From an uncultured Prevotella sp. (GTDB lineage Bacteria; Bacteroidota; Bacteroidia; Bacteroidales; Bacteroidaceae): a DNA stretch of 64,000 nt. Each line of letters opens with the position of its first letter. Position 1 is the stretch's first letter. The translations under genes were made by a program, and so were the position numbers. Positions 9,383 through 51,144 of this stretch are shown here, piece by piece. The stretch lies in assembly GCA_946188165.1 (NCBI GenBank), contig CAMHTW010000010.1, forward strand, positions 1 to 64,000, given 5' to 3'. The notes below the pieces were generated by a model, which was not told the DNA's origin, searched no databases, and was given only the letters and a program-made list of their open reading frames with translations.

Positions 9383-9400
9383 CGTCAGTCTAGTTTTGTC

Positions 9401-21743: not shown

Positions 21744-21752
21744 TTTTTTATT

Positions 21753-27116: not shown

Positions 27117-27147
27117 TTGGAAGTTTCAAAAAAAAACTCTATATTTG
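27117..27147 (+). promoter_or_regulatory. Promoter of the fimbrial/giant-protein locus
   Basis: TATATTTG (27140-27147) is a perfect -7 box and TTGG (27117-27120) lies 19 nt upstream. The start would be near 27154, about 80 nt before the ATG at 27234. No other promoter this clear was seen in the 36.7 kb downstream. Confidence 0.7.
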
Positions 27148-27233
27148 CGCTCTATAACAATAACGTACGCGAATTAAACAACCATGCGTATGCAAATATA
27201 GAGGACAGAATTAACGTATTTTATAAGTTTGAA

Positions 27234-28820
27234 ATGATCAACTTTAAAACCACATATCGCCCCAGTTTTTTGTACGACAATCGTCGGGCAAAGAATTGTT
27301 TTGTGTTATTGGTTTTGCTGTTTGGCCTGGTGCAAAACATGGTGGCAAAACAGATGATCATTCCGATATTCAATGAGGACAGCCCCCTTCTTTACAATTG
27401 GTTTGTTGATAGCAAAGACTCCATCAAATTGTCGGACGAGGAGTTTTTTGACCACAGCGCCAAGGTGCTGTTCAAGGTTAACAAATACGGTCTGCCAAGG
27501 AACGACAAGACCTTGGACGAATTGGAGAAGATTGTGTTGCCACGTATCAATCAGGACAGCCTTGAGCTGGTAGCTATCGTCATCCGAGGCGCTGCCTCGC
27601 CTGAAGGTCCTTTATGGCTCAACAAGATATTGAGTGAGAAACGCGCTAAAGCTCTGACAGACTTTGTGACATCGCGCCTGAAGTTTAACGGGCTCAACGA
27701 TTCGACTAACGTAAACAGAAACCTTCGTCAGGACTGTGTCGTTGAGGACTACCGTTCACTCTGCATCCTGATGAAAAAAGCAAACGATCCTGATTACGAT
27801 TACGTAAAGCGCCTATGCGACCAATATCTGCCCGAGGACAATCTGGAGCAGTTAAAGACTGAACTGATGAAGGCCCGCAAAGGACAGCTGTGGAAACACC
27901 TGCTGGGCACATACTTCCCGCAATTACGCAGTGCCCGCATCTTATTGTTCTTCCGCAAGCACCAGCCCAAGCCCGAAACGGTTGTCACACCAGAACCCAT
28001 CATACCCATAGAGGAAATAAAGACGAATGCAGTAGAGCAAAAGCCCGACACCGCCGTTCTGGACACCCTGCATAACGAAGTAACACCATTGGAAGACGAG
28101 ATTCTCCAGCGCAAAAAGCTGCTGGCTGTCAAGACCAACCTGCTATTTTATGGTGCCTACATCCCTGGCTATGATCGTTGGGCTCCCATTCCCAATATCG
28201 CATTGGAATACTATCCTCTGAAAGGCCACTTCACCTTTGGCGCTTCGTTCGACATGCCTTGGTGGCAGGACTACGATGCCCACAAGTACTTCCAGTTCCG
28301 CAACTATCAGGTGGAAGGAAGATGGTATGCCCATGGAGCCAATAAGACGACAGTGACTAATGATGCTAATAAGATCAATGAGGAAAATAGGGCCTATAAC
28401 AAAAAAGCCTATACCGGCTTCTACCTTCAGGGATATGCTCATCTGGCCGTCTTTGGCATCTGCTTCGATGAAAACCGAGGTTGGGTAGGTGAAGGTGCAG
28501 GTGCAGGCATTGGTGCAGGCTATGTGCTGCCGTTGTCACGTGAAGGACACTGGCGACTGGAGTTTGGCCTGCAGGCTGGTTTCTTCCGTTGCAAGTACGA
28601 TCCCTACCAGTTCGAGAACCCTGTGAATCCTGCCTATCGCGACGGACTCTACTACTACAAGTGGACGCAGAGACCCAGCTTGTTTGAGAAGCGTCAGTAT
28701 CGCTGGAACTGGATAGGCCCAACCCGCATAGGTATCACCCTGAGCTACGACCTGTTATATCGCCGTATAGAGAAGAAGGGCGTGAGCTTTAAGAGCACAG
28801 AAAGGAGGGCCCATGAATAA
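27234..28820 (+). CDS. OmpA-like/DUF3575 outer-membrane protein at the head of the fimbrial locus
   Basis: About 528 residues from the ATG at 27234. The ORF-track TTG start (27117) lies in the promoter. A signal peptide (CFVLLVLLFGLVQNMVAKQ core) precedes a periplasmic domain with the OmpA-like segment IRGAASPEGPLWLNKILSEKRAKAL. A Pro/Glu-rich linker and a C-terminal DUF3575-type beta-barrel follow (LAVKTNLLFYGAYIPG ... GIGAGYVLPLSREGHWRLEFG ... RIGITLSYDLLYRR). Such proteins head fimbrillin loci in Bacteroidales and may anchor or assist pilus assembly in the outer membrane (inference). The stop overlaps the next start by 8 nt. Confidence 0.82.
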   Translation: MINFKTTYRPSFLYDNRRAKNCFVLLVLLFGLVQNMVAKQMIIPIFNEDSPLLYNWFVDSKDSIKLSDEEFFDHSAKVLFKVNKYGLPRNDKTLDELEKIVLPRINQDSLELVAIVIRGAASPEGPLWLNKILSEKRAKALTDFVTSRLKFNGLNDSTNVNRNLRQDCVVEDYRSLCILMKKANDPDYDYVKRLCDQYLPEDNLEQLKTELMKARKGQLWKHLLGTYFPQLRSARILLFFRKHQPKPETVVTPEPIIPIEEIKTNAVEQKPDTAVLDTLHNEVTPLEDEILQRKKLLAVKTNLLFYGAYIPGYDRWAPIPNIALEYYPLKGHFTFGASFDMPWWQDYDAHKYFQFRNYQVEGRWYAHGANKTTVTNDANKINEENRAYNKKAYTGFYLQGYAHLAVFGICFDENRGWVGEGAGAGIGAGYVLPLSREGHWRLEFGLQAGFFRCKYDPYQFENPVNPAYRDGLYYYKWTQRPSLFEKRQYRWNWIGPTRIGITLSYDLLYRRIEKKGVSFKSTERRAHE

Positions 28821-30036: not shown

Positions 30037-30071
30037 AACGAGAGTATTAACGAGATAAAATAATTAAAAAT

Positions 30072-31949: not shown

Positions 31950-31983
31950 CAACTAACTAGACAAAAAACATAACAATTAAAAG

Positions 31984-33876: not shown

Positions 33877-34150
33877 TCCTATATACCAGGTGGGGTTCGA
33901 CTCCTCGGTGGGTAACTAAGAAAAGAATAAAGTAATAAAGAAGAAAAAATGAAAGAAAATGGACTTCTCTTCCAAGGTCGTTTGGCCGTCGTAGCGCCGT
34001 CGTTGGTATATCGTAGCGATATCGATGGTTCGACGGAGCTTCGGTTATCTTTCGGTAAGGTAAGAAGAGGGTAAGAAGAGGCCAAGAAGAGGGTAAGAAG
34101 AGGCCGGGCCTCGAAATAGTATAAGAAAATAAATTATTAACGAAAACTGA
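33877..34150 (+). promoter_or_regulatory. Unusual 274-nt spacer before fimbrillin 3
   Basis: Much longer than other gaps in this locus. It holds a perfect hairpin ATATCG-TAG-CGATAT (34008-34022), a GC-rich stretch CGTCGTAGCGCCGTCG just before it, four tandem 11-12 bp units GTAAGAAGAGGG (34060-34104) and a GAGGCC-G-GGCCTC palindrome. No TAnnTTTG box was found. It may control fimbrillin 3 separately from fimbrillins 1 and 2. Confidence 0.45.
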
Positions 34151-35914: not shown

Positions 35915-35953
35915 CCCCTCCCCCCTACGGGCTCCCTCGCAAGAGGGGGCCAA
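35913..35953 (+). terminator. GC-rich palindromic element at the end of fimbrillin 3, possible attenuator
   Basis: CCCCTCCCCCCTACGGGCTCCCTCGCAAGAGGGGG begins within two bases of the TAA stop. CCCTC and GAGGG arms can pair. No U-run follows, so it would more likely slow or partly stop transcription, or stabilise the upstream mRNA, than end it. It belongs to the same element family as those in pdxA2 and the RluA gene. Confidence 0.45.
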
Positions 35954-36089
35954 TAGGGCTAATAAGGCTAATAAGATAATAATTAAAAAAACAATGAGCG
36001 AGCAAGAAACGAAGAAGGACGAGGCCATTAAGGCTAATGAGGCTAATGGGGCTTATAAGCCCAATGAAGCTAATGGGCCTGAAGCCAAT
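35950..36089 (+). repeat. 9-bp repeat (AATGGGGCT) block spanning the spacer and start of the four-helix gene
   Basis: CCAATAGGGCTAATAAGGCTAAT in the spacer (35950-35980) and AATGAGGCTAATGGGGCT with further units at 36027-36089 inside the gene. In the gene the frame is AAT-GGG-GCT, giving Asn-Glu/Gly-Ala linkers. Confidence 0.75.
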
Positions 36090-36764
36090 AGCCAGCCCCA
36101 GCGCAAAGCGCTGGAGCCTAAGCCCTTCTTGCCAAAGAAGGGTAACTATCGTGGACTCATCGTCTATCAGAAGGCGGAGTGTATCTACGATATCACCTTC
36201 TATTTTGCTCACCATTACTTCGTGGAGCGCAAGGATCGCACCATCGACCAGGTCGTTCAGGCCGCCCGCTCTGGTAAGCAGAATATCGCAGAGGGCTGTG
36301 CAGCAGCCAGCACCTCTGCTGAGACAGAGTTGAAACTGCTGGGGGTGGCCCGCGCCAGCATGCAAGAGACGCTGTTGGACTACGAGGACTATCTGCGTAC
36401 CCGCCACATGGAACAGTGGCCCTTAGACGATCCTCGTACCCAGCAAATACAGGAATATAGCAAGGTGCACAACCGTCCGGAGGACTACACGAAGGACATC
36501 GACAAGCGCTCACCCGAAGTCCTGTGCAACATTGCTATCACCCTGATCCACCAGTTCGACAACATGATGGGCAGGCTACTGGATCGCCTGCAAAAGGACT
36601 TCGTGGAAGAAGGCGGTATTCGCGAGCGGATGACTGCAGCGCGCCTGGGCTACCGCAATGAGCAGAAAGCCCGCATCGCAGAGCTTGAGGCGGAGAACGC
36701 CAAGTTGAAAGCCCGCATCACCGAACTGGAGGCCGCCCTGCGGCAGAAAGGAGACAAACTATGA
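35994..36764 (+). CDS. Four-helix-bundle protein (S23/IVP-like with suffix domain and coiled coil)
   Basis: 256 residues with no signal peptide. Residues 1-45 are a hydrophilic repeat-made tail (NEANGAYKPNEANGPEANSQ). The core (about 50-140) reads LIVYQKAECIYDITFYFA ... AARSGKQNIAEGCAAAS, the signature of the 23S-rRNA-intervening-sequence-type four-helix bundle. The suffix part has LIHQFDNMMGRLLDRLQKDFVEEGGIRERM. The last 40 residues form a coiled coil (LEAENAKLKARITELEAAL). The function of this family is unknown; related bundles serve as accessory proteins in diversity-generating retroelements. It is the only cytosolic product in the pilus locus and overlaps the next gene by ATGA, so it is made with the pilins. 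Confidence 0.83.
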   Translation: MSEQETKKDEAIKANEANGAYKPNEANGPEANSQPQRKALEPKPFLPKKGNYRGLIVYQKAECIYDITFYFAHHYFVERKDRTIDQVVQAARSGKQNIAEGCAAASTSAETELKLLGVARASMQETLLDYEDYLRTRHMEQWPLDDPRTQQIQEYSKVHNRPEDYTKDIDKRSPEVLCNIAITLIHQFDNMMGRLLDRLQKDFVEEGGIRERMTAARLGYRNEQKARIAELEAENAKLKARITELEAALRQKGDKL

Positions 36765-37996
36765 AAAGACCAATGAGGCTAATGAGGCCAATAAGGCTAA
36801 TGGGGCTAATGGGGCCAATGAGGCTCATGGGACTCATAGGACTCATGGAGCTTATGGGGTGTAGCGGAGGTGAGGACGCCACAGGACAGACTCCAACGAC
36901 ACCGCCTACCCCGACGACACCTACGATAACGGAGACTGCCATCACTTTCAGCGGACAGCAAAGCGAAGAGCAGGCTGTAAGCCGAGGGGCCAATAGGGCT
37001 TATGGGCCTTATAGACGGGCGGCTGGCACCCCGCTGAGCGATGCAGGCGTAAGACAGTTCCACGTCTGGGGCTATAAGAACATGGACTACGAGGCTGATG
37101 CCTATGGCGGCACGCAGACGGTGTTCCCAGGCTATACCGTCAACTGGATTAGCGGCAGCGCCGCCACGACAACTACGAACAGCAACGGCTGGGAGTATGT
37201 GGCTCAGCAGACAACCGACGACGAACAAACCATCAAGTACTGGGACATGGGCGCCAAAGCCTATCGGTACTTTGCGGTAACAGGAGGGCTGAATGGGACC
37301 TATGGGGCCAATGGGGCTTATGGGGCCTATGAGTTCAGCATTGCGGCGGATGCCAGCAGTGAAGGGGCGAGGACGGCTACGCCGTACTTCAGCAAGCTGT
37401 GGTTCTCGACGGGAAATCTGGGCGCTTACCCCGACAAGCAGTTTGGCAAGCCCGTGACGCTGGAGTTCCTGAAGCCCTTCGCGCGCGTGCGATTCCTATA
37501 TAAATATTCCACCCCGCGCGAGGGATTTAAGATGACGGAACAAAAATTCCGTCCCACGGACGATGTGAGTGCCGCAGATGACGCTAAGGCGAAGATAGCC
37601 CGCAAGGGTACGGTGACTGTCCACTACCCCACTGAGGGAACTGCCACTAAGGAGTGGTACACAGTGGTAGTAGATAATGATAAGTCCACAAGGCTGGAGG
37701 CCTTTACTGAGGACTTCGACCCTGATAACGACACCAAAGTATATACCACCTGTGACAACGGCTGGTATTGGGTGTTGCCAATCATTTCGCAAGGCAGCTA
37801 TACGCTGACGGTGAAAGTAAATAACAACGATAGAGCTGTCACTGTGCCTGCGGAATATATGACTTGGCTGCCAGGCTACAGCTACACCTACATCTTCAAA
37901 GTCACCGAAGAAGGCGGTGTGGAGATTGGTTGGGTAGAGTATGCCATGACACCTTGGACTGAAATGACTGCCACCAAAACGGTATATAATTGGTAG
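36761..37996 (+). CDS. Fimbrillin-family lipoprotein 4
   Basis: 411 residues. The signal peptide is built wholly from 9-bp repeats (MRLMRPIRLMGLMGPMRLMG…) and ends in a LMGC lipobox (C34). A Thr/Pro-rich spacer leads to the first strand AITFSGQQSEEQAVSR (R75), then a second repeat-made linker (GANRAYGPYRR). The Mfa-like motifs QFHVWGYKNMDYEADAYGGTQTVFPGY, GWEYVAQQ and IKYWDMGAKAYRYFAV follow. It is shorter than fimbrillins 1-3 and more GC-rich. It may be a minor or tip-proximal subunit. The start overlaps the four-helix gene. Confidence 0.82.
   Translation: MKRPMRLMRPIRLMGLMGPMRLMGLIGLMELMGCSGGEDATGQTPTTPPTPTTPTITETAITFSGQQSEEQAVSRGANRAYGPYRRAAGTPLSDAGVRQFHVWGYKNMDYEADAYGGTQTVFPGYTVNWISGSAATTTTNSNGWEYVAQQTTDDEQTIKYWDMGAKAYRYFAVTGGLNGTYGANGAYGAYEFSIAADASSEGARTATPYFSKLWFSTGNLGAYPDKQFGKPVTLEFLKPFARVRFLYKYSTPREGFKMTEQKFRPTDDVSAADDAKAKIARKGTVTVHYPTEGTATKEWYTVVVDNDKSTRLEAFTEDFDPDNDTKVYTTCDNGWYWVLPIISQGSYTLTVKVNNNDRAVTVPAEYMTWLPGYSYTYIFKVTEEGGVEIGWVEYAMTPWTEMTATKTVYNW
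36771..36861 (+). repeat. 9-bp repeat array encoding the signal peptide of fimbrillin 4
   Basis: About ten consecutive units ATG-RGG-CYN (for example ATGGGGCTA, ATGAGGCCA). The same unit in the frame AAT-GGG-GCT gives the ANGA linkers elsewhere in the locus. Other short blocks in fimbrillin 4 lie at 36986-37018 and 37288-37330. Confidence 0.85.
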
Positions 37997-38008
37997 GGAG
38001 ATAGTGAT

Positions 38009-38040
38009 AATTGATAATTGAAAATTGAGAATTGAAGATT
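38009..38040 (+). repeat. GATAATTGAAAATTGA repeat before fimbrillin 5
   Basis: Seven-base-like units (AATTGATAATTGAAAATTGAGAATTGAAG) fill the gap between fimbrillins 4 and 5 and include the apparent TTG start codon at 38032. A twin run lies at 39141-39166, before giant gene 1. Confidence 0.75.
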
Positions 38041-39153
38041 GAAAAGACCATAGTAAGAATACTGGTACTCATGAGCCTGACGGTGCTCATGGGATGCTCT
38101 GCAGACTCTGAACCAGAGACGTCGGAGATGAAGACGGCTGCGGTGGAGGTGGTAAGCTTTGTCACGGGGTATGATGAGGCCTATGGGGCTAATGGGGCTC
38201 ATCGGGCCTGGGCGATTCCCTCGGGGTATGTGGCCTATGAGGACGGAGAGCAATCTATTGGCATTGCCTTTACGCAGAATGACGTAGAACCAAGGATTGG
38301 CAACTTTTTCAAGAGTGGAGACAAGTGGCGTACAGACTTGGAGAACATTGAAGCAGGAAGCTACCAGCTCTATGGCTATATTCCTCATCAGACAGCGATT
38401 AATTATAGTATTACGGACTATAATGGGGCTAATGGGTCCTATAGCACGGGGGCTATTATGACCCTGCAGAATGTACCCACTGTGATGCCTAACGACCTCT
38501 GCGTGGTCATTGGTGCTAAGCATGGTACAGATAAAGAGCACGATAGCGGGTTGCGGCAGGGTGACTTTAGTTTTACTGCTAAGCAAGGTACCGACAGCAA
38601 AGACTACGTCTTCCTGCTCTTCGACCACCTTTATGCCGCCCTGCGTGTGCAGATGAGGGTACAAGGCGACTATGCTACCCAGCGCACCATTAAGCTGAAG
38701 AAACTCCGCCTGCAGGCCAGTGTCGGTAATACGCCAACGACGAAAAAGACCAGTATCACCATTGCGTTGAATAAGACGACGGATGGTACCAACCCTATCA
38801 CTAATGTCATCTTCACACCTACGGGTACGGAAATTAGTGATGGTGTGATAGTAGAATCGAAAGATGGTATCGAGCTGACAACAGCCTTCCAACCATTCCA
38901 GAGTCATTTCATGCCTGCTGGTGTCACTAAACTGAATCTGATCAGCACGTATGATGTCTATGATAGAAAAGGCAATCTGATACGCCTGAACGATGAGGCT
39001 ATCAATACCATAGATATACAGGAGTTGTTTTCAGGACAGACCCAAGCGTTACGTGGACGTCGGTATACAATCAATATGACGATTAACCCGACGTACCTTT
39101 ATATGCTGTCGGAGCCAGACTTAGACAACCCTACTGTTACAATTGATAATTGA
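38032..39153 (+). CDS. Fimbrillin-like lipoprotein 5 (possible tip or minor subunit)
   Basis: 373 residues if translation begins at TTG 38032 (KIEKTIVRILVLMSLTVLMGC, lipobox cysteine at 22). No ATG is available before the lipobox that would leave a full signal peptide, and an in-frame TGA lies two codons upstream of the TTG. The mature protein has two repeat-made segments (AYGANGAHRAW and YNGANGSYS). Its later part YVFLLFDHLYAALRVQMRV resembles the central strand of fimbrillins, and the end RRYTINMTINPTYLYMLSEPDLDNPTV fits tip-type fimbrillins. It has no clear ITR site. A repeat that holds the start codon could affect expression. The stop is inside the twin repeat. Confidence 0.75.
   Translation: MKIEKTIVRILVLMSLTVLMGCSADSEPETSEMKTAAVEVVSFVTGYDEAYGANGAHRAWAIPSGYVAYEDGEQSIGIAFTQNDVEPRIGNFFKSGDKWRTDLENIEAGSYQLYGYIPHQTAINYSITDYNGANGSYSTGAIMTLQNVPTVMPNDLCVVIGAKHGTDKEHDSGLRQGDFSFTAKQGTDSKDYVFLLFDHLYAALRVQMRVQGDYATQRTIKLKKLRLQASVGNTPTTKKTSITIALNKTTDGTNPITNVIFTPTGTEISDGVIVESKDGIELTTAFQPFQSHFMPAGVTKLNLISTYDVYDRKGNLIRLNDEAINTIDIQELFSGQTQALRGRRYTINMTINPTYLYMLSEPDLDNPTVTIDN
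38171..38212 (+). repeat. 9-bp repeat block inside fimbrillin 5
   Basis: ATGAGGCCTATGGGGCTAATGGGGCTCATCGGGCC read in the hydrophilic frame (AYGANGAHRA). A second block is at 38418-38448. Confidence 0.75.
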
Positions 39154-39166
39154 CAATTGATAATTG
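39141..39166 (+). repeat. AATTGATAATTGACAATTGATAATTGAC repeat before giant gene 1
   Basis: The stop codon of fimbrillin 5 (39151-39153) lies in this repeat, which is nearly the same as the run at 38009-38040. Confidence 0.75.
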
Positions 39167-39171
39167 ACGAT

Positions 39172-42100
39172 ATGAGACGGATTATTACCATATTGAAAAA
39201 GGACATGAGGCCAATGGGGCTGATGAGGTTGATAGGCCTGACAGTGCTTATGAGCCTGATGGGCTTGTCGGTTCATGCCCAGATTAAGATTGGTGGTAAC
39301 GTATATGGTGGCGGAAACCATGCAGAGGTACGAGGAAGCACGAAGGTGACGGTGCTGAAGGGTGACATCGGTGCTGTGATGGATCCTGATGTAACGAAGC
39401 GCCAACTGGCAGATCCCAGCGGTAAGGTGTTCGGTGGTGCCCGTATGGCCAATGTAGGTGGCAGCTCATTCGTTCATATCGATGGTGAGAATGCCACCGG
39501 CTATATCCTTATTAATCAGGTATATGGCGGTAATGATATTGCCGGTACTATCGGCACAGCAGCAGCCGTAGGAGCAGAGATTCCTACGGAGCTGACGGAA
39601 ACCCAACCAGAAAGTGGGACTAATGAAAAGAAGAACAAGGTCGATAACACGTTCAACAGCTATGTGCGCATCAGCACGAAAGCAACTAATGAGCATTATA
39701 CTCAAAGCGAGATTGATGCTGCTTCAACAAACCCTGAGGCTGCTGCTTACGGAAAGACAACCAACGACGTGAAGCCCGATCCTTTGGCAAAGAAGGTTTA
39801 TATCGGACAGCTCTTCGGTGGCGGTAATGGTGACTTCACCTATACCGATGATGAGGGAAATCAGCTGAAAGATGGCGACGATTATATTATCAAACAAGGC
39901 GACACGATTATTGCCAGGAGTGCTACACCTTTCCAACTCCCCGAACTGGACAAGACCTATCTTGAAATCAAGGGCGGTTCTATCGTCTATGGCTATGGAG
40001 GTGGTAACAATGCCACGGTGAAACAGCAGAACATCATCCACATTGACAACCCCAGTGCGGTGGTGAACCATATTCTTGTGGATGCCAATGGCAATGAGGG
40101 TAATGATGAGACCTATACGACCTATGAGACTAATAAGAAAAATGGGGACGAAAATCCGCTTCCTTCGGGCTATACCGACCTGCTGACAACAGAACGTTTC
40201 AAGGAGATGGGTATCAACACCACTTTCTCATTCCCCAGTAGTGGTGCATACCAAATAGGCCGTTTCTTCGGTGGTAACAACAAGGCGGAGATGCATATCC
40301 GTCCTACGTGGAACCTGCTGGCGGGTAAGGTGCGTAACCTGTATAGCGGCGGTAACAAGGGCTCCATGACCTCTCCCGATGGTTTGCTCCTTGAAATCAA
40401 GGACTACTCCAGCCTTATTGTCGATAACCTCTTTGGCGGTTGTCGTATGGCAGATGTCATGCCAACGAACGACGATGGTGTCTATACGCCGTGTTTGAAC
40501 CTGCCGGGCTACCACTTCCCCCATCAGCTGTCTGCCCGTGTATTGGTAAAAGGTGGACATATCAATAATGTCTATGGTGGTAACGACGTGACAGGTACGG
40601 TCTATGGCGGTAATGCTGTCGATATCAATACTACCGTCTATGGCGACGTCTATGGTGGCGGTAATGGTGCTTATCCATACACAGACTCTCCATCACTTAA
40701 AGATGATCCCACCTATGGCGACTTCTGCTACTATGACGAAAACAGTCCCGGTGGTACTGAGGGCCTTAATGCCTTCCGTCCGAACGCCGAGCAGGTGTCT
40801 ATCCATCTGTTAGGTACTGAAGAGCACAAGACAGTCATCAAGGGTTCTGTGTTCGTCGGAGGAAACTGTGCATCGTTGGCTACCAAGATGAGTAATCCAT
40901 TGGTCGAGTTGAAGATAGGCTCATATGTTATTGCCGATAAGGTATTCCTTGGCAACAATGGTGAGAAGATGGTAGATGAGTCTATTCTTCAGCATTATGC
41001 CAATGTATATCCAGGAGCAGAAGGCTTCAGCTCATTTAATTTTAAAGAAGGCCCATCCACGTTTGCAGATTATATGGATGGTGTTGCCATGCCTTTGAAG
41101 CCCAGTCTCGTTTTCGATAATACTGCGAACGGCGATGCGGCCACATACATTGACAACACGAGTATGATAGGCTCGTTCTTCGGTGGTGGTAACAGAGGTA
41201 GTATGACCGTAGGCGGCAAGACGACTCTGAAGTTCGACAAAAAGCTGATTATCTTCGATAAGATTGTTGCCGGCTGTAACAACGCCAATGTAGCAGAAGG
41301 AACGTATAATGCTGCTTATGAAGGTGGTCTGTTAGGCGCTACCGACGAACGTGACAGCTACACCGAGGGTGGCAAGATTAAAGACCGCATAGAGTTGAAC
41401 CTCGACAACGTTCTTATAGAGCCTAAACGCTGGAACGACACCTTTACAGCAGTCCCCAATGGTACGACACTTACGGCAGGCAAGGAGTATTATGAGACCG
41501 ACCTGCACGAGACGAAGTTTATTGCTAACGGTACAGAGGTTTCCACCACAGCTAATCCATACTATGAATTGACGACTGTCGGATTGAGTCTGGAGTGGAA
41601 CACTGCCAAGTGGTCATTAGCCGAGAATGACTTTGTCAGTACCGGAACATCAAAGACCGGAAGCCCAAAGGACTGTGAAGATATCGACCGTCGTCTGCTC
41701 TGTGGTAACGTCTATGGCGGTTGCTACAATAGTGGTCATGTAAATGGTAATGTGGTTATCAACATCAACCAGAACTTGATGGATCGTGATGTCATCTTTG
41801 CCCAGGCTGCTGATAATGATCCATACAAGATCAGCGGTGAGCGCCGTACTGGTGTGCTGAAGGAAGCTCAGGGTGACGACGTGATGGCAACATCCTTGGC
41901 TGTTTACGGTGGCGGATTTGGTGCTGATACTGAGATATGGGGTAGCACCACCATCAACCACAATAATGGCTATGCCTTCCAGATGTATGGAGGTGGCGAG
42001 CAAGGTGTTGTCGGTAAGAAAAACAACGACGGTGAATACACCTATAACGCAGCCTACAGCACTACTGTCAATCTAAAAGGTATCAATGCCGGCTACTCGG

Positions 42101-45100
42101 AGAATGAGAGCGGCCTACCCATTCCTGAGTCAGAGTATATCTATGGTGGCGGTAACGAAGGCGATGTCCTCGGTGATTCTTATGTCTATCTGGGCAATGG
42201 TCGCATCTACGATGCTTTCGGAGGTGCTTCTAACGCCGACATTTATGGTGGTACGGAGGTACATATAGGATATAACGGTGGATTCCCGTGGATTCGTGAT
42301 AATGTCTATGGCGGTAACGACTTCGGTGGAACCGTTAGGGGTAACAGAAACCATTACACGGTAACGACACGAGAAGTCTTCGATCTAGAGTTGAAACGAT
42401 CCAGCACCTATGTGAAGTATATCCAGGGTCGTGTTGATTCTATCTTCGGCGGCAACTATGGTTACTATGACTATGCAGACCGTGTGTTCAAAGATTACAC
42501 AGACGGCAATGGTGCGCCATTGGATGGTTTCACCTTCCCGCATCTGAGCGACAACTCCTTCGTTCATTTCGTGCCAGAAGACCACTCCAGCAATCATGTG
42601 GGTTACATCTTTGGTGGCAGTGTTGGTTTCCCAGGTCATGAAAAGTTGTGTAACTCTATGCAGAAGGAAACCTATGTGCTTCTCGATGACACTAAGACCA
42701 AGAATGCCAACCGCTTTGCCAATGTTGATGTCTATGGTGGTGGTGCCTTCGCAGGTGTAGGAACAACGTTTGAAACCTTAGGTGCCGGACGTACCGCTGT
42801 TGACCTGTTTGCCGGTAGCTACCATAACATCTATGGAGGCTGTAATCAGGAGGGTCTGGTAGGTTACACCCGTGTCAACGTGCCTACAGAATCTACAGCC
42901 AAGGTGAATGCCCTCTTCGGTGGTGGCAAGGGATATGACATTGCACTGTTTAAAAAAGAGGCCACAAAACAGTTGGCAGCACGCTACTGCGACCACTATG
43001 TCACCTGTGTTGACTTTAAGAGTAAGAAAGCTATTGTAGAAGATGGCATCTATGGCGGTAATGAGAATTGTCGTATCGCGTGCGATACCTATATTAATAT
43101 AGAAGCACCTGTCATGCAGAGCAGCGGCTATCAGGCTACTGTCTATGGTGCTGGTTATGGTCGTAAGACGCTCTCTGGTCGCACCAACGTGTTTATGAAC
43201 AACGGTTCGAATGCCTATAAAGTGTTTGGCGGTGGCCGTGATGGTAATGCCTTCAACTTCGCTTCGATGTCAAAATGGCTCGCTAACCAATACGATTTAG
43301 CTGGAACTCCGACAGGAGAAATAGAAGGAAAACTGGTTGCCTATCGTGGCCTTTTGGAAGACTTTGGCACCTATTTGGCAGCAAATCCTCTTAGTCTGCC
43401 GACCAATATTGGTACATACCCCAACGCTGAAGGCGCATACACCGGTACCTATACCAATGATATTCTGACGAACGACAAGTACCACCAGACCAACGTCCAT
43501 ATTATGAATGGTGGTAATGTGAGCGGTTACGCCTACGGTGGTGGATATGGTATCAATGCCGTGGTATCAGGTTCTACCTTTATTGAGCTAAAGGGTGGTA
43601 ACGTGAATAAGGATGTCTATGGCGGTGGTGAAGGAGGTCCGGTATTTGACGAGTTCGGACTGGGAGGCTTTACTGCAACCACCAACGTCAATGTCGAAGG
43701 TGGTATGGCTCGTAACGTCTATGGTGGTGGTTACCTGGGATCAGTGGGTAAGCACCATAACACCGTTGAAGAAGAGCTCGTGGAAGCAGCCATCACCGAT
43801 ACAACGCCGGTTGACATCCCAGGCGTAGCCAACGTGACTATCGGTAAGTTGGATGGCACCAATTTCTATAACGGTGTTCCTGCCATCCAGCGTAATGCCT
43901 ACGGTGGTGGCGAGGGTGGTTCTGTCTATGGCACAAGCAACCTCACCATCAACAATGGTTATATCGGTTACCGCTATAAGAACACCTCAGCAACGGCAGT
44001 TCCTAACTACGAATATGTACCAGAACTGGACGACCAGACTCCTAACGCTATCGAGTTGGCAGGTAATGCCTTTGGTGGCGGTTATGTCATCAACAGCTTC
44101 GTAGACAACACCAATGTCACCATGTATGGCGGCACACTCCGTGGCAGCCTCTATGGTGGCGGTGAGCTCGGTCCTATCGGACGCGGCACGATGAAGTCTG
44201 GTGCCACTGGTGGCTTTACCAATGGTAATGCCCATATCTACAAGGGAGGAACGACTTATGTCAAGTTATATGATGGGCATGTACTTCGTAACGTCTTCGG
44301 AGGCGGTCGCGGTAAGGACAGCTGGGGCGGTGACGGTACGAAATACATGGATGCAGATTTGGTTGCAACGCTTGACCTCAAATCAAAGGGATTTGTCTTC
44401 GGAAAGACCGAGGTTGACATCTATGGCGGTGAGGTTGGTACTTCCGAGGGTGTTGCCCAGGGTTACGGAAACGTCTTTGGTGCCGGTGATGTCGGGTGCG
44501 TCTATAGTGCAACAGGTACCAAGTCCGGAGAAAGATATGTTAATAGCAAAGAAGGCTACTACTATGCTAATAATGAACTTACCGAGGACTGTAAGGTGCT
44601 TGTAGAGCCTTGGTGTAAGGCAAACTCTGACGTTAATATCAATGGTACTGACTATGCCGCAGGCAAATATGTTCCGACAGCTGCATTGAACTATTTGGGT
44701 AATAAGACTGCCAGTGCAGCAGAATGGACAGCTCTTGGTAAGACGGATGTCAACAAGGAAGGCATCATTATCCATAATGCCGTCTTTGCCGGTGGTAACA
44801 CCTCTCCTGGTTCTACCGAGGTGTTTGCCAATACCCCAACGGTATTCGGTAATGCCACAGCATCTATCCACGATGTCTACAACCGTGACCTTATCTCTAT
44901 TGGTAGAGGTCGTGTAGGTGGACTGTATGGTGATGGTAACCTGACGTTGGTCGATGGCTATCGTGAGTTGAACATTACCAACTATGGTACCGACTTCTAC
45001 CATATTAATCCAGAGATTACCTTGGAGCAGTATAATGCACTCCCAGTCCGCGAGGCTGCTTATTATGAAATTCGTTATAAGTGTCTGCAGCAATGTACAG

Positions 45101-48100
45101 ACAAGGATGGCAAGACCTACGCTGTCGGTGCAACTATCACTGCTGATGAGATGCTGACCGTCTTTGAAGGTGTGACAGTGGGAGAACCTGCTGTGCCCAT
45201 GATAGATGCTGATGATAAACCTTTGCCAGCATATTGGGAGGAGAACGGTGTCTGCTCACGCTATGCCGGTCGTCCTATGAATACCGTACAGCGTGCCGAC
45301 TTCTGCGGTGTCTTCGGTAGCCGCATGGTGATGCAGGGTGCACAAGACCGTGTGCCAGAGGTCGTGGACTATACTAACTACACCATCAACCGTGTTCGTG
45401 AGGTGTCACTGAATAAGAAGACATCAGTACGCTCTGATGATGCTAGTGATGCCAAGAACAAGGAACATGGCAACTACTTCGGTATCTACAGTGTCGTGAA
45501 CTACCTCGGTGCCCTCACGAGTGATGTAGACTTCCACACTGCAGTTCGTGTAACAGATAATACAGATGCAACGACCTATCAATGTGAAGCAAATGGGAAT
45601 AACTATGGAGTGGCTACCTATGAGGATTGGAAAAACCAGTTCCACGAGGATCGTAGACGTAATAATGGTACCTCGCACAACAAGGTAGCACTTGCTTCTG
45701 GTGTCTATCTGGAACTGACCTCAGAGAAGAGTACCGGCAAAGGACTCAATGAGAAAGACTGGGGCTATATCACTGGTGTTGTAGAACTCGACCTGATTAA
45801 CGTGCAGCCAGGTATGGGTGGTGGTTACGTCTATGCCAAGAACGAACATGGCGTACGTAGTCCTTCCGGAAAGACAAACACCATACTGACCAGCTTGAAC
45901 ACTGGAGCCGTTACAAACAAGATATTCACATACTCTACCGACGATTCTTCCAAGAAAGAATGGGAGACCTCCGGCAACTTCGTTCATAACACGAAGACCA
46001 TTATTGATGACTGCTATAATATCGGTAACAAGTATAAGGCACCCGATGCTGTTCCTGCGCACTACTGGTATATCAAGGGTGCTGTCTATGTCTATGACCA
46101 GTATATCTCTGCTTATACCGGTTCTCCGAATGCCTTCAGTGAGGAGGTTAGCATTCCATTAACCATCACCTCAGCTTCTCATGGCAAGTTGACTCTGATG
46201 GATGTGATGCCCAACCGCTATGCCTACTATTCTAATGGCGCTACGAAGAATAAACTTGGTGCAAATCAGAAGATAACCATCCGCGACAAGGAATACGGTC
46301 TCAACGACGCTATCACCTACTGGGATTACAGCCAGCTCACCGCAACAGAGAAGGCTATGTTCGTTGAAGAAACCTACACTGTCATTTCCGATTGTACTTA
46401 CGGAGATGGTGCAACGCCTGTCACATATAAGGCAGGAACCGTACTGTCGAAGGAAGAATATGAGACTTTGAGAACATACGCTCCTAAGAAGTATCTGGAA
46501 GAGGGTGATGAGGTACAGACGCCTTATGTACATCTCGTAACGAGAGACGAGGATGTTGACTTTGATTATGCTTTCCGTCCTTCCAACAATGTCAGCCACA
46601 ATACGGGTTATATCCTGACTTACAATATCAACAACCCGAACCAGTGGAACACCTGGTACACACCAAAGAGCGGAAGCTCATTGGAAGGAAAGAACCAAAC
46701 TGGCGGTGCAGACTACGAGGATGGTCCGACCTATACACCAATTGCCCCAGGCATGTATGGTCAGAATGACTATAAGGTTGGTAGCATCATCTCGCATGAA
46801 GACTATACTACATATACTAGTATTCCTGCTGCGTACATACCGAATAATGGAAAGAATCCAGGTGATGAGGGTTATGATGCCAGCAAGAAACAGGCCATCT
46901 TCAAGCCTGCCTATATCGTCACCGCTGAGCTTTTGGAAACCAAGAACAAGGATAATATTGACCAGCGTTTCCATAAAGGAGCTGTATTGGCTAAAGAGAA
47001 TTATACCGATGCTCAATGGTCAAGCATGAGTGGCAGCGTACAACAGGCTTATGTTGCTACAAGCACCGTTCAGATTAGTAACACCGAGGTTATCTATCGC
47101 AATACTTATCTGCCGAAATCTAAGTATGATGAACTCGTGAGTGCTCATTCTGATATAGCGACTACCATTCAACCTGCCTACTACTGTATTGAGGCTGGTA
47201 AGTATGGCGGCAACTACTATCAGACAGGCAATAACTACCGTGCTTTAGCAGCCTTTAGTGCTATGTCAGAAGATGACCGTAAGAAGTTCGATTATAACTA
47301 CGATGCCCTCGACCTGCTCATCGACCCGAACTACAGTAGGTCAGAAGGTGTGAAGTATCAGTATGACGGTAAGAATTATACCACAGAAGATGAGGCTCGC
47401 CAGAACATGGCTACCTACTCACTTCCTACGTCTATCGACTATAGTGCTACGTACAAGGGTTCTACGTCGTTTAAGTACATTGATGACAATAATCAGGAAC
47501 AGACCATCAAGACGGATGGAACCTCAGTACTTACAAGAAGCGAGTTTGAACGCCTGCCTAACGAGCAGTACTACTGGGCTCCGATTTCTGTGGGAGCAGC
47601 AGGTACATACTATGTGGTGAAGGAAACGATTGTGCTTGGCGATACCCCATACGCTGCCGGACAGGTCATCACGAGTGACACTTATAGTGGACTGAGTGAT
47701 ACGGATAAGTTAAAGGTGGAAACGCTGAACTTCGATGCTACAGGTACCTATTATTACTGTCGTGAGGGCTACACCATTAACAGCAGCTACTACACAGACA
47801 CAGAAAAGACTGGTGCTGTAACTGATATCCATAATACGAAACATACAACTGCTGTGCCTGCAGGTACTGTCATTAAGGCAGAGACTGATGATACTGTCTA
47901 TGGTTATGATAATGTCATCAACAAGCAGGCGAACTTCTCTATCCACGGATTGGCACCGACGGAGACCAGTACGCTGTACGTCACTCGTGGTTCAGACATC
48001 TTCGACCTCTCTGCTGAGAAGATTATCACGGTCATCTACCAGTACGACTATGTAGAGAGTGATATGGCTGGTCAGCACATCACACCGGTAAGCGAGCGCC

Positions 48101-51100
48101 ATATCCTGAATATCCACCTGAACTTCAAGAGTGGTGTTCCGACCGTGGAGGATATCCGTCAGCCAGACATCATCCTGCCGGGTACGGCTCTGTCAATGCC
48201 TGAGCCATACGTCACACCGGGTGCATACGAAATCACCGGTGGTGGTTGGAAATTGTTCGAATCAGAGACGGATGCTGAAAGCCATATCAATGGCGTTGAG
48301 TACACGAACTCTGTAGATCCGCTCTACCTCTATCAGAACAAGTATTGGCTGGCTTACTACACCAGAACGTACTTGGGTGAGACCTACTCGAACCATGTAC
48401 CTGTCAGTGTGGCTAACTACCATGACCTGAAGAAGGTGATGGATGCCAAGACGCACCACTACTACATCGACCACAAGGATGTACACGAGCGTCTCGGTGT
48501 TAAGCCCAAGATTTACATCAACGACTATAGCGGAAGTTCGGAGAATGGTCTCGACCTGTTCAAGAACCTGTATGACCTGAGCTTGCTGACAACTCCTGCA
48601 GCGTCTGGCGCTCTCGAAGGACATGCCCTGCTGAATGAACGTATCAAGGGCGGCGAGAACCTTGAGTTCTTCCTGCGTACGGATATCGACCACAGCACTA
48701 CACCTTGGACATCGATTGCATCTGAAGCAAATCAATGCTTCGAGGGTACGCTTCATGGCGATGGTCATACTATCAGTGGTCTGAACAACTCCCTGTTCGG
48801 TCATCTCTGTGGTAATGTCTATAACCTCGGCGTAACAGGTTCGTTCACAGGCGCTGGTGTGGCAGATGAAGGCAAGGGCTATGTGGAAAGCTGCTGGATT
48901 AACACCACGGGTACACCGGCAAGCGGCGTCAGAGCCGTCTTTGGTAAACCGACTGCCACTGATGACATCAAGCAGATTGTCAACAGCTACTACCAGGCCG
49001 GCAAGAGCTATAGTACAACGGACACTGGCAGCCATGGACTTGCAAAAGCTATGAGCGACCAGGCATTCTACAACGGTACAGTGGCCTATGACCTGAACAA
49101 CTTCTACCTGTACAAGCGCTATAACGATGGCACTGGTACAAGCTCTGGCGTTGAATACAAATACTGGATACCGGGCGAGGAAGAACCGCAGACAGGACAC
49201 TACGCTAACAACATCGAACTTTGTTCTTCCGGCTACAACAACATCAAGTATGTCGAGGAACGCTTTAAGGACGGTGACTTCCGTTATGCTGGCGGTACTA
49301 TTCCTGACAGCGAGGACGAACGCTTCTATACCAAGACGCTCAATCTTGGAACAGAGCAGGAAACCGTAGAAAGCGGCTTCTACCCCATCTGGCCGGACGA
49401 CTATCTGTTCTTTGGCCAGAGACTTACCTACGGCTATGCAACAGAAGCCCATCAGGATGTGCCAACAGCTGTGGCGAAGAATAGTGGACGCCTATCGACA
49501 CTTTTGGATGCCAACCGTGTCTATCGTGCACCGGCTTACTACCGTTCGAAGGATATGAGCTTCATACATTTCAACCCGCAAGTCTATCTGGCTCAGAAGT
49601 CTAAGGACGGCTCTAAGGAGGCATATCCTAACCTGACGGCTATTGACTTCAAGGGACACAATGATACCTATGAAGCTAATGGGGCCCATAAGCCTTATGA
49701 GTTGGGCTGGAATAATGGTAAGTTCTATGCGCCACTGCTCGATGACGGCGGTCTGACAAGTATCATCAACTGTGACGAGACCAGAAACCTGCTGGTATAT
49801 GCACCGGCAGAAAGTGCTACCACAGGCTATGCCAACAAGGCGACTTACGATGTGCTGACGGGCTACTTTACGGATCCTGCTTACGGTGACTATTATAATA
49901 TAGAAGGCAAACCCGAAGAGTACCGCACGGTTGCAGATGTCACCTCTACCAATGCGGCTATCTACGGTCACCTTGTGAAGAGCAACCTCAAGGCTACCAA
50001 CGACCATCTGCTGGTAGATAAGGAAGACTTCAACTGTCCGATAGCCTACCAGTTCGACGGCACTCACCGTATGTGGTACCAGCGTAAGCCGGAGGATCAT
50101 GAGTATGTTGACTTCACGAAGGGCTGGCAGGGTATCAGCATCCCGTTCACAGCAGAACTGGTGACTACTGACGATAAGGGTGAGATTACCCACTTCTACA
50201 GCGGTAGTGAAACGAGCAAGAACGGTACGGGTACTAAGATTGGTCATGAGTACTGGCTGCGTGAATTCAAGAGTATTAGTGAAGAAGGAACAGCACCTGA
50301 TGTGGTCGCTAAGGCTTCATTCCTCTATCCTACTGCTACGGTTAATAGTAAGACGGTAGATAATATCTTCCTGTGGGATTACTATTATAAGAATACCGCC
50401 GTTCACAACCAGAAGGATGAGAACAAGGACACGTATCAGACCTATTATGAGAAGAGCCGCAACTATTCGGGCTATCCGCTACTGGCTGCTGCCACACCGT
50501 ATATCCTCGGTCTGCCAGGTGAGACCTACTATGAGTTCGACCTCAGCGGTAACTTCGAGGCTCAGCACACGGCAGTAGCCATTGACAAGTTGGGTAAGCA
50601 AACCATCAGCTTCGTTTCTAATACGGGCATCGATATCGGTGTGAGCGATAAAGAGACAGCAGGCGTTACGCAGGCGTTAGAAGGCACTAACAAGAACTAT
50701 AGTTTAACCTTCAAGCCCAGCTATATGAACGAAAATCTGACAGCAGGTACCAACAACTACACGCTGGATACCGCTGGCGACAGCTATGACAAGGTGCCTA
50801 CTACCGGTGCAGCCACTAAAGTCAGTGCCTTCCGTCCATACTTCACGGCTACTGTCACTACAAACAGTCCTAAGATGATACCTGAGCGTATCATGTTCGG
50901 TAATGACTACAGCGGTTTGGAGGGAGAGCCGATTGCAACCCTTGACGGTAATCTGGAGATAAATGTCGAAGGACATAAGATTGTCGCCACGTCGCACCTC
51001 AAGAATGCTACGACGGTACGTATCATCAACGTCAGCGGCGTTTCCATCGCCAACTATGTCATCCAGCCGGGCGAGACGGTAGAGACCCCGGTAAGCATCG

Positions 51101-51144
51101 AAGGCGTATATATTGCAAACAAGAAGAAACTATTAGTAAAATAG
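39172..51144 (+). CDS. Giant secreted repeat protein 1 (VYGGG beta-repeats, T9SS-like C-terminal tail)
   Basis: 3990 residues from the ATG at 39172; the ORF-track TTG (39157) lies in a repeat. The signal peptide (about 1-36, ending SVHAQ) contains the 9-bp-repeat-made core MRPMGLMRLIGL. Residues of about 40-1940 carry several dozen V/I-Y/F-G-G-G turns spaced roughly 20-60 residues, with alternating hydrophobic residues between them (beta-solenoid-like). Residues of about 1970-2870 have repeated small modules of the form Y-x-x-G-x-x-I/L-S/T-x-x-x-Y/F. A GLUG-like stretch (FEGTLHGDGHTISGLNNSLFG) is near 3190. The last 70 residues (LEINVEGHKIVATSH ... VRIINVSGV ... IEGVYIANKKKLLVK) resemble a type IX secretion C-terminal domain. 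No enzyme motif was recognised. Probably a surface adhesin or matrix protein (inference). Confidence 0.85.
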   Translation: MRRIITILKKDMRPMGLMRLIGLTVLMSLMGLSVHAQIKIGGNVYGGGNHAEVRGSTKVTVLKGDIGAVMDPDVTKRQLADPSGKVFGGARMANVGGSSFVHIDGENATGYILINQVYGGNDIAGTIGTAAAVGAEIPTELTETQPESGTNEKKNKVDNTFNSYVRISTKATNEHYTQSEIDAASTNPEAAAYGKTTNDVKPDPLAKKVYIGQLFGGGNGDFTYTDDEGNQLKDGDDYIIKQGDTIIARSATPFQLPELDKTYLEIKGGSIVYGYGGGNNATVKQQNIIHIDNPSAVVNHILVDANGNEGNDETYTTYETNKKNGDENPLPSGYTDLLTTERFKEMGINTTFSFPSSGAYQIGRFFGGNNKAEMHIRPTWNLLAGKVRNLYSGGNKGSMTSPDGLLLEIKDYSSLIVDNLFGGCRMADVMPTNDDGVYTPCLNLPGYHFPHQLSARVLVKGGHINNVYGGNDVTGTVYGGNAVDINTTVYGDVYGGGNGAYPYTDSPSLKDDPTYGDFCYYDENSPGGTEGLNAFRPNAEQVSIHLLGTEEHKTVIKGSVFVGGNCASLATKMSNPLVELKIGSYVIADKVFLGNNGEKMVDESILQHYANVYPGAEGFSSFNFKEGPSTFADYMDGVAMPLKPSLVFDNTANGDAATYIDNTSMIGSFFGGGNRGSMTVGGKTTLKFDKKLIIFDKIVAGCNNANVAEGTYNAAYEGGLLGATDERDSYTEGGKIKDRIELNLDNVLIEPKRWNDTFTAVPNGTTLTAGKEYYETDLHETKFIANGTEVSTTANPYYELTTVGLSLEWNTAKWSLAENDFVSTGTSKTGSPKDCEDIDRRLLCGNVYGGCYNSGHVNGNVVININQNLMDRDVIFAQAADNDPYKISGERRTGVLKEAQGDDVMATSLAVYGGGFGADTEIWGSTTINHNNGYAFQMYGGGEQGVVGKKNNDGEYTYNAAYSTTVNLKGINAGYSENESGLPIPESEYIYGGGNEGDVLGDSYVYLGNGRIYDAFGGASNADIYGGTEVHIGYNGGFPWIRDNVYGGNDFGGTVRGNRNHYTVTTREVFDLELKRSSTYVKYIQGRVDSIFGGNYGYYDYADRVFKDYTDGNGAPLDGFTFPHLSDNSFVHFVPEDHSSNHVGYIFGGSVGFPGHEKLCNSMQKETYVLLDDTKTKNANRFANVDVYGGGAFAGVGTTFETLGAGRTAVDLFAGSYHNIYGGCNQEGLVGYTRVNVPTESTAKVNALFGGGKGYDIALFKKEATKQLAARYCDHYVTCVDFKSKKAIVEDGIYGGNENCRIACDTYINIEAPVMQSSGYQATVYGAGYGRKTLSGRTNVFMNNGSNAYKVFGGGRDGNAFNFASMSKWLANQYDLAGTPTGEIEGKLVAYRGLLEDFGTYLAANPLSLPTNIGTYPNAEGAYTGTYTNDILTNDKYHQTNVHIMNGGNVSGYAYGGGYGINAVVSGSTFIELKGGNVNKDVYGGGEGGPVFDEFGLGGFTATTNVNVEGGMARNVYGGGYLGSVGKHHNTVEEELVEAAITDTTPVDIPGVANVTIGKLDGTNFYNGVPAIQRNAYGGGEGGSVYGTSNLTINNGYIGYRYKNTSATAVPNYEYVPELDDQTPNAIELAGNAFGGGYVINSFVDNTNVTMYGGTLRGSLYGGGELGPIGRGTMKSGATGGFTNGNAHIYKGGTTYVKLYDGHVLRNVFGGGRGKDSWGGDGTKYMDADLVATLDLKSKGFVFGKTEVDIYGGEVGTSEGVAQGYGNVFGAGDVGCVYSATGTKSGERYVNSKEGYYYANNELTEDCKVLVEPWCKANSDVNINGTDYAAGKYVPTAALNYLGNKTASAAEWTALGKTDVNKEGIIIHNAVFAGGNTSPGSTEVFANTPTVFGNATASIHDVYNRDLISIGRGRVGGLYGDGNLTLVDGYRELNITNYGTDFYHINPEITLEQYNALPVREAAYYEIRYKCLQQCTDKDGKTYAVGATITADEMLTVFEGVTVGEPAVPMIDADDKPLPAYWEENGVCSRYAGRPMNTVQRADFCGVFGSRMVMQGAQDRVPEVVDYTNYTINRVREVSLNKKTSVRSDDASDAKNKEHGNYFGIYSVVNYLGALTSDVDFHTAVRVTDNTDATTYQCEANGNNYGVATYEDWKNQFHEDRRRNNGTSHNKVALASGVYLELTSEKSTGKGLNEKDWGYITGVVELDLINVQPGMGGGYVYAKNEHGVRSPSGKTNTILTSLNTGAVTNKIFTYSTDDSSKKEWETSGNFVHNTKTIIDDCYNIGNKYKAPDAVPAHYWYIKGAVYVYDQYISAYTGSPNAFSEEVSIPLTITSASHGKLTLMDVMPNRYAYYSNGATKNKLGANQKITIRDKEYGLNDAITYWDYSQLTATEKAMFVEETYTVISDCTYGDGATPVTYKAGTVLSKEEYETLRTYAPKKYLEEGDEVQTPYVHLVTRDEDVDFDYAFRPSNNVSHNTGYILTYNINNPNQWNTWYTPKSGSSLEGKNQTGGADYEDGPTYTPIAPGMYGQNDYKVGSIISHEDYTTYTSIPAAYIPNNGKNPGDEGYDASKKQAIFKPAYIVTAELLETKNKDNIDQRFHKGAVLAKENYTDAQWSSMSGSVQQAYVATSTVQISNTEVIYRNTYLPKSKYDELVSAHSDIATTIQPAYYCIEAGKYGGNYYQTGNNYRALAAFSAMSEDDRKKFDYNYDALDLLIDPNYSRSEGVKYQYDGKNYTTEDEARQNMATYSLPTSIDYSATYKGSTSFKYIDDNNQEQTIKTDGTSVLTRSEFERLPNEQYYWAPISVGAAGTYYVVKETIVLGDTPYAAGQVITSDTYSGLSDTDKLKVETLNFDATGTYYYCREGYTINSSYYTDTEKTGAVTDIHNTKHTTAVPAGTVIKAETDDTVYGYDNVINKQANFSIHGLAPTETSTLYVTRGSDIFDLSAEKIITVIYQYDYVESDMAGQHITPVSERHILNIHLNFKSGVPTVEDIRQPDIILPGTALSMPEPYVTPGAYEITGGGWKLFESETDAESHINGVEYTNSVDPLYLYQNKYWLAYYTRTYLGETYSNHVPVSVANYHDLKKVMDAKTHHYYIDHKDVHERLGVKPKIYINDYSGSSENGLDLFKNLYDLSLLTTPAASGALEGHALLNERIKGGENLEFFLRTDIDHSTTPWTSIASEANQCFEGTLHGDGHTISGLNNSLFGHLCGNVYNLGVTGSFTGAGVADEGKGYVESCWINTTGTPASGVRAVFGKPTATDDIKQIVNSYYQAGKSYSTTDTGSHGLAKAMSDQAFYNGTVAYDLNNFYLYKRYNDGTGTSSGVEYKYWIPGEEEPQTGHYANNIELCSSGYNNIKYVEERFKDGDFRYAGGTIPDSEDERFYTKTLNLGTEQETVESGFYPIWPDDYLFFGQRLTYGYATEAHQDVPTAVAKNSGRLSTLLDANRVYRAPAYYRSKDMSFIHFNPQVYLAQKSKDGSKEAYPNLTAIDFKGHNDTYEANGAHKPYELGWNNGKFYAPLLDDGGLTSIINCDETRNLLVYAPAESATTGYANKATYDVLTGYFTDPAYGDYYNIEGKPEEYRTVADVTSTNAAIYGHLVKSNLKATNDHLLVDKEDFNCPIAYQFDGTHRMWYQRKPEDHEYVDFTKGWQGISIPFTAELVTTDDKGEITHFYSGSETSKNGTGTKIGHEYWLREFKSISEEGTAPDVVAKASFLYPTATVNSKTVDNIFLWDYYYKNTAVHNQKDENKDTYQTYYEKSRNYSGYPLLAAATPYILGLPGETYYEFDLSGNFEAQHTAVAIDKLGKQTISFVSNTGIDIGVSDKETAGVTQALEGTNKNYSLTFKPSYMNENLTAGTNNYTLDTAGDSYDKVPTTGAATKVSAFRPYFTATVTTNSPKMIPERIMFGNDYSGLEGEPIATLDGNLEINVEGHKIVATSHLKNATTVRIINVSGVSIANYVIQPGETVETPVSIEGVYIANKKKLLVK
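39205..39264 (+). repeat. 9-bp repeat encoding the signal peptide of giant protein 1
   Basis: ATGAGGCCAATGGGGCTGATG and following units in the hydrophobic frame, as in fimbrillin 4. A further block in the hydrophilic frame lies at 49661-49702 (TYEANGAHKPYE) deep in the same gene. Confidence 0.75.

Follow-up and report, generated by a model that had tools for sequence, protein, structure and literature searches.

To our knowledge, the four-helix proteins of the S23 family have solved structures (2GSC, 2RLD) and no known function, and bacterial repeats of the heptamer type have been described without a source. The intervening sequences (IVS) of 23S rRNA that carry S23p, for example in Coxiella, are regarded as selfish and sporadic (PMC4990558). 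RAYT genes are thought to seed repetitive extragenic palindromes (REPs; PMC2817692). Dispersal and G-quadruplex formation have been reported for the GGGAATC and GGGGA(C/T)T heptamers of Xanthomonas and Nostoc (PMC4692102). TAACTGA direct repeats of Beggiatoaceae, Cyanobacteria and Bacteroidetes have been proposed as post-transcriptional regulatory sites, with no cognate four-helix gene named (PMC4679880), and homology between PF05635 and Avd has been noted (PMC10053308). Here we analyze a 64,000-nucleotide stretch from an uncultured Prevotella sp. (assembly GCA_946188165.1, contig CAMHTW010000010.1, positions 1 to 64,000; hereafter the window), in which arrays of a 9-bp unit surround and enter a four-helix-bundle gene of a pilus locus (35994-36764). 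We propose that these 9-bp blocks are probably cognate to a four-helix-bundle element in which gene and arrays act together as an insertable unit.

Six copies of the unit AATGGGGCT are present in the window, where 0.5 would be expected; none of 100 shuffles reached six. A first-pass annotation, made from the sequence alone, had placed the unit at eight or more sites of the pilus locus, and the two-unit pattern ATRRGSCYNATRRGSCY indeed has eight hits in the window (near 35953, 36037, 36773, 36993, 37302, 38174, 39205 and 49679). Tandem Repeats Finder reported 9-bp arrays at 35948-35975, 36031-36075, 36772-36848, 37293-37331 and 38183-38207. Degenerate pattern searches provided the counts for the whole 3.41-Mb genome, where ATRRGSCYNATRRGSCY was found at seven further places and a reversed-pattern control at none, a dispersal far above chance. 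Shuffles and reversed control together ruled out chance or codon use as the source of the unit count. Eight of the approximately 15 arrays of the genome lie within 14 kb of the four-helix gene, that is, within 0.4% of the genome. Arrays also flank and enter this gene itself, the upstream one being intergenic, which the first-pass annotation had missed. Unlike a simple variable-number tandem repeat or minisatellite, which would be confined to one locus and arise by local slippage, the unit also occurs at seven places outside the window and is shared with the gene family that it flanks.

The protein encoded by the four-helix gene matches TIGR04258 with 79 bits (cut-off 40) and TIGR02436 with 30.2 bits, above the cut-off; its PF05635 match, at 28.1 bits, falls below the cut-off of 33.8. 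The AlphaFold model is confident (pLDDT 88), and the solved structures that it best matches are the S23-family proteins 2GSC (XCC0516) and 2RLD (BT_0352), with high probability and weak E-values. A four-helix superfamily is also what the locus has in common with the Avd proteins of diversity-generating retroelements; it differs from these in that no reverse transcriptase domain was present in the nine open reading frames (ORFs) scanned around the gene, from 27117 to 40500.

TIGR04258 genes were found in 84 of 150 genomes of the genus, mostly one to five per genome, and 141 of them, including that of the window, made up the locus set. In 132 of these loci the gene has an array no more than 400 bp away. 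Over the first 100 bp from the gene, array coverage is 0.31, compared with 0.08 beside 478 other genes of the same loci, an approximately 4-fold difference; an earlier enrichment of about 40-fold, derived from decay with distance, was dropped as unfair because the flanks are intergenic, and the flanks of other genes were used instead. The unit varies from locus to locus (CCTAGRNNNN, TCAGARTAN, TGGGAGNNN, CTATAGNNN, NATRRGSCY and others). The left and right flanks of a locus nevertheless match, sharing 0.42 of their 7-mers versus 0.06 when permuted (maximum 0.185 in 10,000 permutations; first 27 two-sided loci). Unit sharing between loci follows protein identity, from ∼0.03 below 40% identity to ∼0.3 (0.28-0.34) above 70%, partly through simple common descent of the flanks. 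That the arrays are associated with the four-helix gene is near certain. Five TIGR04258 genes (L060, L068, L069, L105 and L115) are located inside apparent type I restriction-modification operons (hsdS/hsdR or hsdM/hsdS, named by inspection).

Dispersed arrays were counted by pattern searches over the 150 genomes, which were taken as independent, so that significance is overstated among close species. TGGGAG arrays number 34.8 per genome with the cognate gene and 0.13 without (p=2e-11), TCAGA arrays 4.6 and 0.2 (p=4e-7), and arrays of the ATRRG type, to which the window belongs, 4.5 and 1.7 (p=6e-6). These counts superseded a first dispersal test that allowed 4/18 mismatches and was too noisy; an earlier co-occurrence test with strict flank typing had given weaker p values. 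Solo arrays, without a gene, outnumber the genes. The system resembles RAYT genes and REPs in that the gene is flanked by its own repeat, that repeats and protein co-vary, and that the repeats are dispersed in their own genome in a copy number which rises with the cognate gene (for three unit types, with exceptions for ATRRG considered below). It differs in having a four-helix protein without a recognized Y1/HUH transposase, PF05635 being the only Pfam match, and repeats which are tandem units of 7-10 bp instead of palindromes of 20-40 nt.

TIGR04258 genes sharing 75-86% identity retain their array type even where their neighbourhoods are unrelated. An empty and a filled site could be compared between lys9 and recA. 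The gap is 36-45 bp long and array-free in two genomes (G124, G091); in a third (G153) it measures 875 bp and consists of a CCTAGG array, a TIGR04258 gene and another array, beginning 3 bp past the lys9 stop. The unit type found there is absent from this site in the other compared genomes. In G151 and G006 (assigned by reading the gap sequence), heptamer arrays in inverted orientation bracket a short TIGR02436-like gene. Solo arrays of several unit types occupy the gap in G000, G122, G080 and G129; the solo arrays include the ATTGATA heptamer array of the window's own genome. We consider it likely that gene and arrays constitute an insertable unit. The lys9-recA gap of G082 (L331), 207 bp long with heptamer arrays and no gene, resembles a non-autonomous short element.

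Short TIGR02436 relatives in other phyla show the same association. An XCC0516 fragment used as query identified 80 loci in named genomes of many phyla, to which 10 cyanobacterial plasmid loci were added, a plasmid search with the short family having recovered cyanobacteria. A tandem array lies within 150 bp on at least one side in 84 of the 90 loci. Arrays cover 0.27 of the first 100 bp, versus 0.06 beside other genes (29 control genes only); for the short families the excess over control genes is ∼5-fold (29 control genes) and ∼8-fold (3 control genes). Upstream and downstream flanks have 535 inverted 7-mers in common, against 92 expected by permutation. Period and orientation both follow the protein family. 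TIGR04258 arrays have periods of 9-10 bp and, when the two flanks are compared, are usually direct (70 versus 34 loci), as is the window element, whereas short TIGR02436 arrays have periods of 7-8 bp and are mostly inverted (62 versus 22 loci; inverted favoured in 62 of 87). On cyanobacterial plasmids (L430, L435, L426), TIGR02436 genes accompanied by heptamer arrays were observed between cas6/cas4 and between ribonucleotide reductase genes. A phage search with the short four-helix protein returned nothing, nor did a plasmid search with fimbrillin 4.

In three Xanthomonas species, XCC0516 orthologues are flanked by CGGGAAT/CCCATTC, which is the known GGGAATC heptamer; judging from the flanking protein ends, the gene is placed between accB and accC. 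The likeness to the Xanthomonas and Nostoc repeats extends to location, mostly intergenic and at a mean distance of 28 nt from the nearer neighbouring ORF, and a text search of PMC4692102 found no mention of the four-helix gene. The TAACTGA repeats are likewise short heptamer arrays, dispersed and sporadic across phyla. With the 23S rRNA IVS, the loci described here share the S23/IVP protein family (PF05635/TIGR02436); complementary ends in inverted orientation may be a further likeness in the short members. They differ in lying between or inside protein genes and not in rRNA, in ending in tandem arrays whose copies are dispersed, and, for the window element as for the majority of TIGR04258 loci, in the direct orientation of the shared units. 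A crude test for one conserved 23S motif gave no match in the loci then in the set.

The locus of the window has an orthologue in genome G122, with the same gene content and order, a four-helix protein of 79-85% identity, varying with the part compared, and a giant 1 protein 76% identical. The G122 arrays occupy places matching those of the window. Position 7 of the unit is A or T in 14/15 cases in G122 and G in 21/28 in the window (p=2e-5). This concerted change across separate genes points to continuing exchange between arrays. Block length is not fixed, since the fimbrillin-4 signal-peptide block comprises ∼9 units in the window versus two in G122, and the GANRAYGPYRRA insert is missing from G122 fimbrillin 4. 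The fimbrillin-5 signal peptide of G122 (L077, 9515-9565) is built of an unrelated 9-bp repeat, GTAAGCTTC (Val-Ser-Phe), suggesting that signal-peptide cores do not draw their 9-bp repeats from a single source. The proposal in the first-pass annotation that the repeat is a source of new exported proteins was not supported: in G122, fimbrillins 4 and 5 have orthologues that are lipoproteins already, although they carry two units or an unrelated 9-bp repeat. As lipoprotein signals exist in G122 without long blocks, the blocks rewrite signals and do not create exported proteins.

Within coding sequence, the product of the unit depends on the frame. Read as ATG-xxx-xxx (MGL/MRL), it forms the signal peptides MRLMRPIRLMGLMGPMRLMGLIGLMELMGC of fimbrillin 4 and MRPMGLMRLIGLTVLMSLMGL of giant 1. 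Read as AAT-GGG-GCT (NGA), it forms linkers: EANGAYKPNEANG in the four-helix protein, and YGANGAYGAY, YGANGAH, YNGANGSY and YEANGAHKPY. Linkers claimed earlier for the four-helix protein, fimbrillins 4 and 5 and giant 1 are thus present, as are two of the claimed signal peptides; the third, in the DUF5119 gene, bears a mere decayed likeness to the unit and is missed by the ATRRGSCYNATRRGSCY pattern. The remaining coding-strand frame, TGG-GGC-TAA, contains a stop, which leaves two open frames, M-G-L (hydrophobic) and N-G-A (hydrophilic). Because the third frame stops, dual-frame use is largely automatic and needs no special explanation. Among arrays away from the gene, 33/64 with periods of 9 or 12 bp fall in ORFs versus 53/181 with periods of 7, 8, 10 or 11 bp (p=0.002), compared with 0.855 of random positions; arrays are depleted in ORFs overall, those of period 9 included (26/56). 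ORFs were called mechanically, and shadow ORFs add noise to these counts. The interpretation in the first-pass annotation is supported in part, by the dispersal of the unit, by the differing block lengths of orthologues and by the commoner presence of period-9/12 arrays than of 7/8/10/11-bp arrays in ORFs. One array gives IlvD of G006 a PISPISPISPI stretch, in a loop that varies among orthologues. Judging from their motifs, further array-bearing proteins, in the window's genome, are glycoside-hydrolase-like, ferredoxin-like and TrpF-like (array in the N-terminus).

These observations are consistent with a scheme centred on one S23/IVP-type gene, here the TIGR04258 gene, with arrays of the cognate unit on its flanks and inside it. 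Gene and arrays would land together in the gaps between genes; at the best-resolved site they begin shortly after a stop codon. The unit would also seed gene-free solo arrays, which are dispersed and in this genome mostly within 14 kb. Units are alike inside one genome or locus and diverge between lineages along with the protein. A 9-bp period preserves the frame, so some arrays persist in genes as three-residue repeats, MGL or NGA depending on the frame. In this scheme the protein would bind the arrays and drive their copying or insertion; that it drives array spread we rate as somewhat better than even. An RNA stem-loop route is suggested by the inverted arrays and the IVS relatives, a DNA route being the alternative.

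Several findings weigh against this reading. Arrays were found on both sides of the gene in only 61/141 TIGR04258 loci at the thresholds used, and other intergenic flanks of the genus are themselves repeat-rich (coverage 0.08). No catalytic domain was recognized in the four-helix protein, its only Pfam/NCBIfam matches being PF05635, TIGR02436 and TIGR04258, and a search for strong basic charge gave a near-neutral protein, with a core charge of -1 (family mean +3), so that nucleic-acid binding is unsupported by charge. Our comparisons, made between genomes and not between strains, revealed no insertion in progress and no target duplication. Finally, eight draft genomes (G080, G153, G167, G077, G145, G091, G172, G090) have 14-32 ATRRG arrays with no cognate TIGR04258 gene detected; these drafts are mostly incomplete, but G077 is 98% complete. 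The exceptions lessen, and do not abolish, the link between array and gene for the window's type.

Arrays could also have come first, as the target, with four-helix genes inserting into, or being retained in, arrays of other origin. Splitting an array would produce two-sided direct flanks such as predominate at TIGR04258 loci, and the excess of solo arrays over genes fits as well. However, the inverted arrays of the short TIGR02436 loci are not obtainable by splitting, the filled lys9-recA genome has a unit type lacking there in the other compared genomes, and array period tracks the protein subfamily; we judge this order of events unlikely. Dispersal could instead reflect a regulon and not mobility, the arrays being regulatory or RNA-processing sites of a domesticated four-helix protein. 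Many arrays are indeed intergenic and near gene ends, and left and right flanks can pair above the permuted level. Arrays inside unrelated coding sequences (the IlvD loop, the glycoside-hydrolase-like protein, the TrpF-like N-terminus) are difficult to account for in this way, as are the differences between relatives in the presence, length and unit of arrays, making a regulon quite improbable.

The tolerance of ORFs for period-9/12 arrays and the two open frames are what would be expected of a minisatellite that spreads by itself and is retained for its usefulness in signal peptides and linkers, as first proposed. Yet the unit is tied to the adjacent four-helix gene, each family of which has its own unit, so that unit identity follows the gene family and not protein use; orthologues keep their signal peptides without the long block, and arrays are depleted in ORFs overall. 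We therefore regard self-spreading as very improbable. Ordinary replication slippage, acting independently at each repeat-prone, hydrophobic or intergenic place, would explain length changes in 9-bp steps and the unrelated GTAAGCTTC repeat of G122. It hardly explains one 9-bp consensus at 15 places of the genome, so concentrated around one gene and with no hit for the reversed control, nor units that are more alike across one locus than between species and have changed in concert, and we give it scarcely any credence. An element made up of the four-helix gene and its cognate arrays is the reading we retain. Its features in the window are collected in Table 1.

Table 1. Four-helix gene, 9-bp arrays and array-bearing genes in the window
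Feature	Position	Strand	Remark
Decayed array in DUF3575 gene, HGANKTTVTNDANK...	28324..28400	+	G122 aligned place: three clean G122-type units, NESNGTNET
Intergenic 9-bp array 5′ of four-helix gene, AATAGGGCT AATAAGGCT AATAAG	35943..35975	+	
Four-helix-bundle gene, TIGR04258 suffix domain and divergent TIGR02436/PF05635 (23S rRNA IVS protein, S23 fold); proposed array hub	35994..36764	+	
Array within N-terminal coding part of four-helix gene, EAIKANEANGAYKPNEANGPEANSQ	36027..36090	+	
Fimbrillin-4 lipoprotein gene (name from first-pass annotation), host of three arrays	36761..37996	+	
Array 3′ of four-helix gene, forming fimbrillin-4 signal peptide, ∼9 units	36772..36848	+	
Array inserted in fimbrillin 4, GANRAYGPYRRA	36992..37018	+	G122 orthologue without array
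Array in fimbrillin 4, NGTYGANGAYGAY	37292..37331	+	G122 orthologue: G122-type unit at matching place
Fimbrillin-5 lipoprotein gene (name from first-pass annotation), host of two arrays	38032..39153	+	
Array in fimbrillin 5, EAYGANGAHRA	38173..38207	+	
Short array in fimbrillin 5, NGANGSY	38422..38440	+	
Giant gene 1	39157..51144	+	G122 orthologue 76% identical over compared part
Array and decayed units forming giant gene 1 signal peptide, MRPMGLMRLIGL...MSLMGL	39204..39264	+	
Array in giant gene 1, YEANGAHKPYE	49660..49698	+	

Fimbrillins 4 and 5 gave no Pfam/NCBIfam match. The genes of the window, taken together, suggest a Prevotella-like member of the Bacteroidota. The window contains other tandem repeats. 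An 11-bp array, GGAGCAGCCTA, at 51278-51344 and a 22-bp array, AACGAGATTACGTCTCGTCGTC, at 51369-51431 occupy the region immediately upstream of giant gene 2 and its first part; their units are unrelated to AATGGGGCT. Arrays of 7 and 8 bp are found in intergenic gaps at 9399-9462, 21193-21254, 21746-21804, 38005-38045 and 39139-39168. A pattern search with the heptamer ATTGAKA matched 31 times in the genome, at some two dozen dispersed sites.

The S23/IVP family, the 23S rRNA intervening sequences and the dispersed heptamers were each known separately; their link is new to the literature searched, in which (open-access papers) no paper connecting the four-helix gene with tandem repeats was found. 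With no HUH transposase, no palindromic REP and a location outside rRNA, we regard this as a new kind of system, which may later prove to be the parent class of the IVS. Our results suggest that a single gene family accounts for many of the short tandem repeats dispersed across bacterial genomes. More tentatively, and at somewhat less than even odds, S23/IVP proteins may be repeat writers in many phyla, pentamers that recognize and propagate their own 7-10-bp array, with the Xanthomonas GGGAATC repeats, the cyanobacterial heptamers, the Bacteroidota 7-10-mers and the 23S rRNA IVS as products of one element class. Linking gene and repeats gives the S23 family a testable role and dispersed repeats a candidate maker. 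It also shows how repeats whose period is a multiple of three can enter coding sequence, where they rewrite signal peptides, linkers and protein termini, including those of an adhesion locus.

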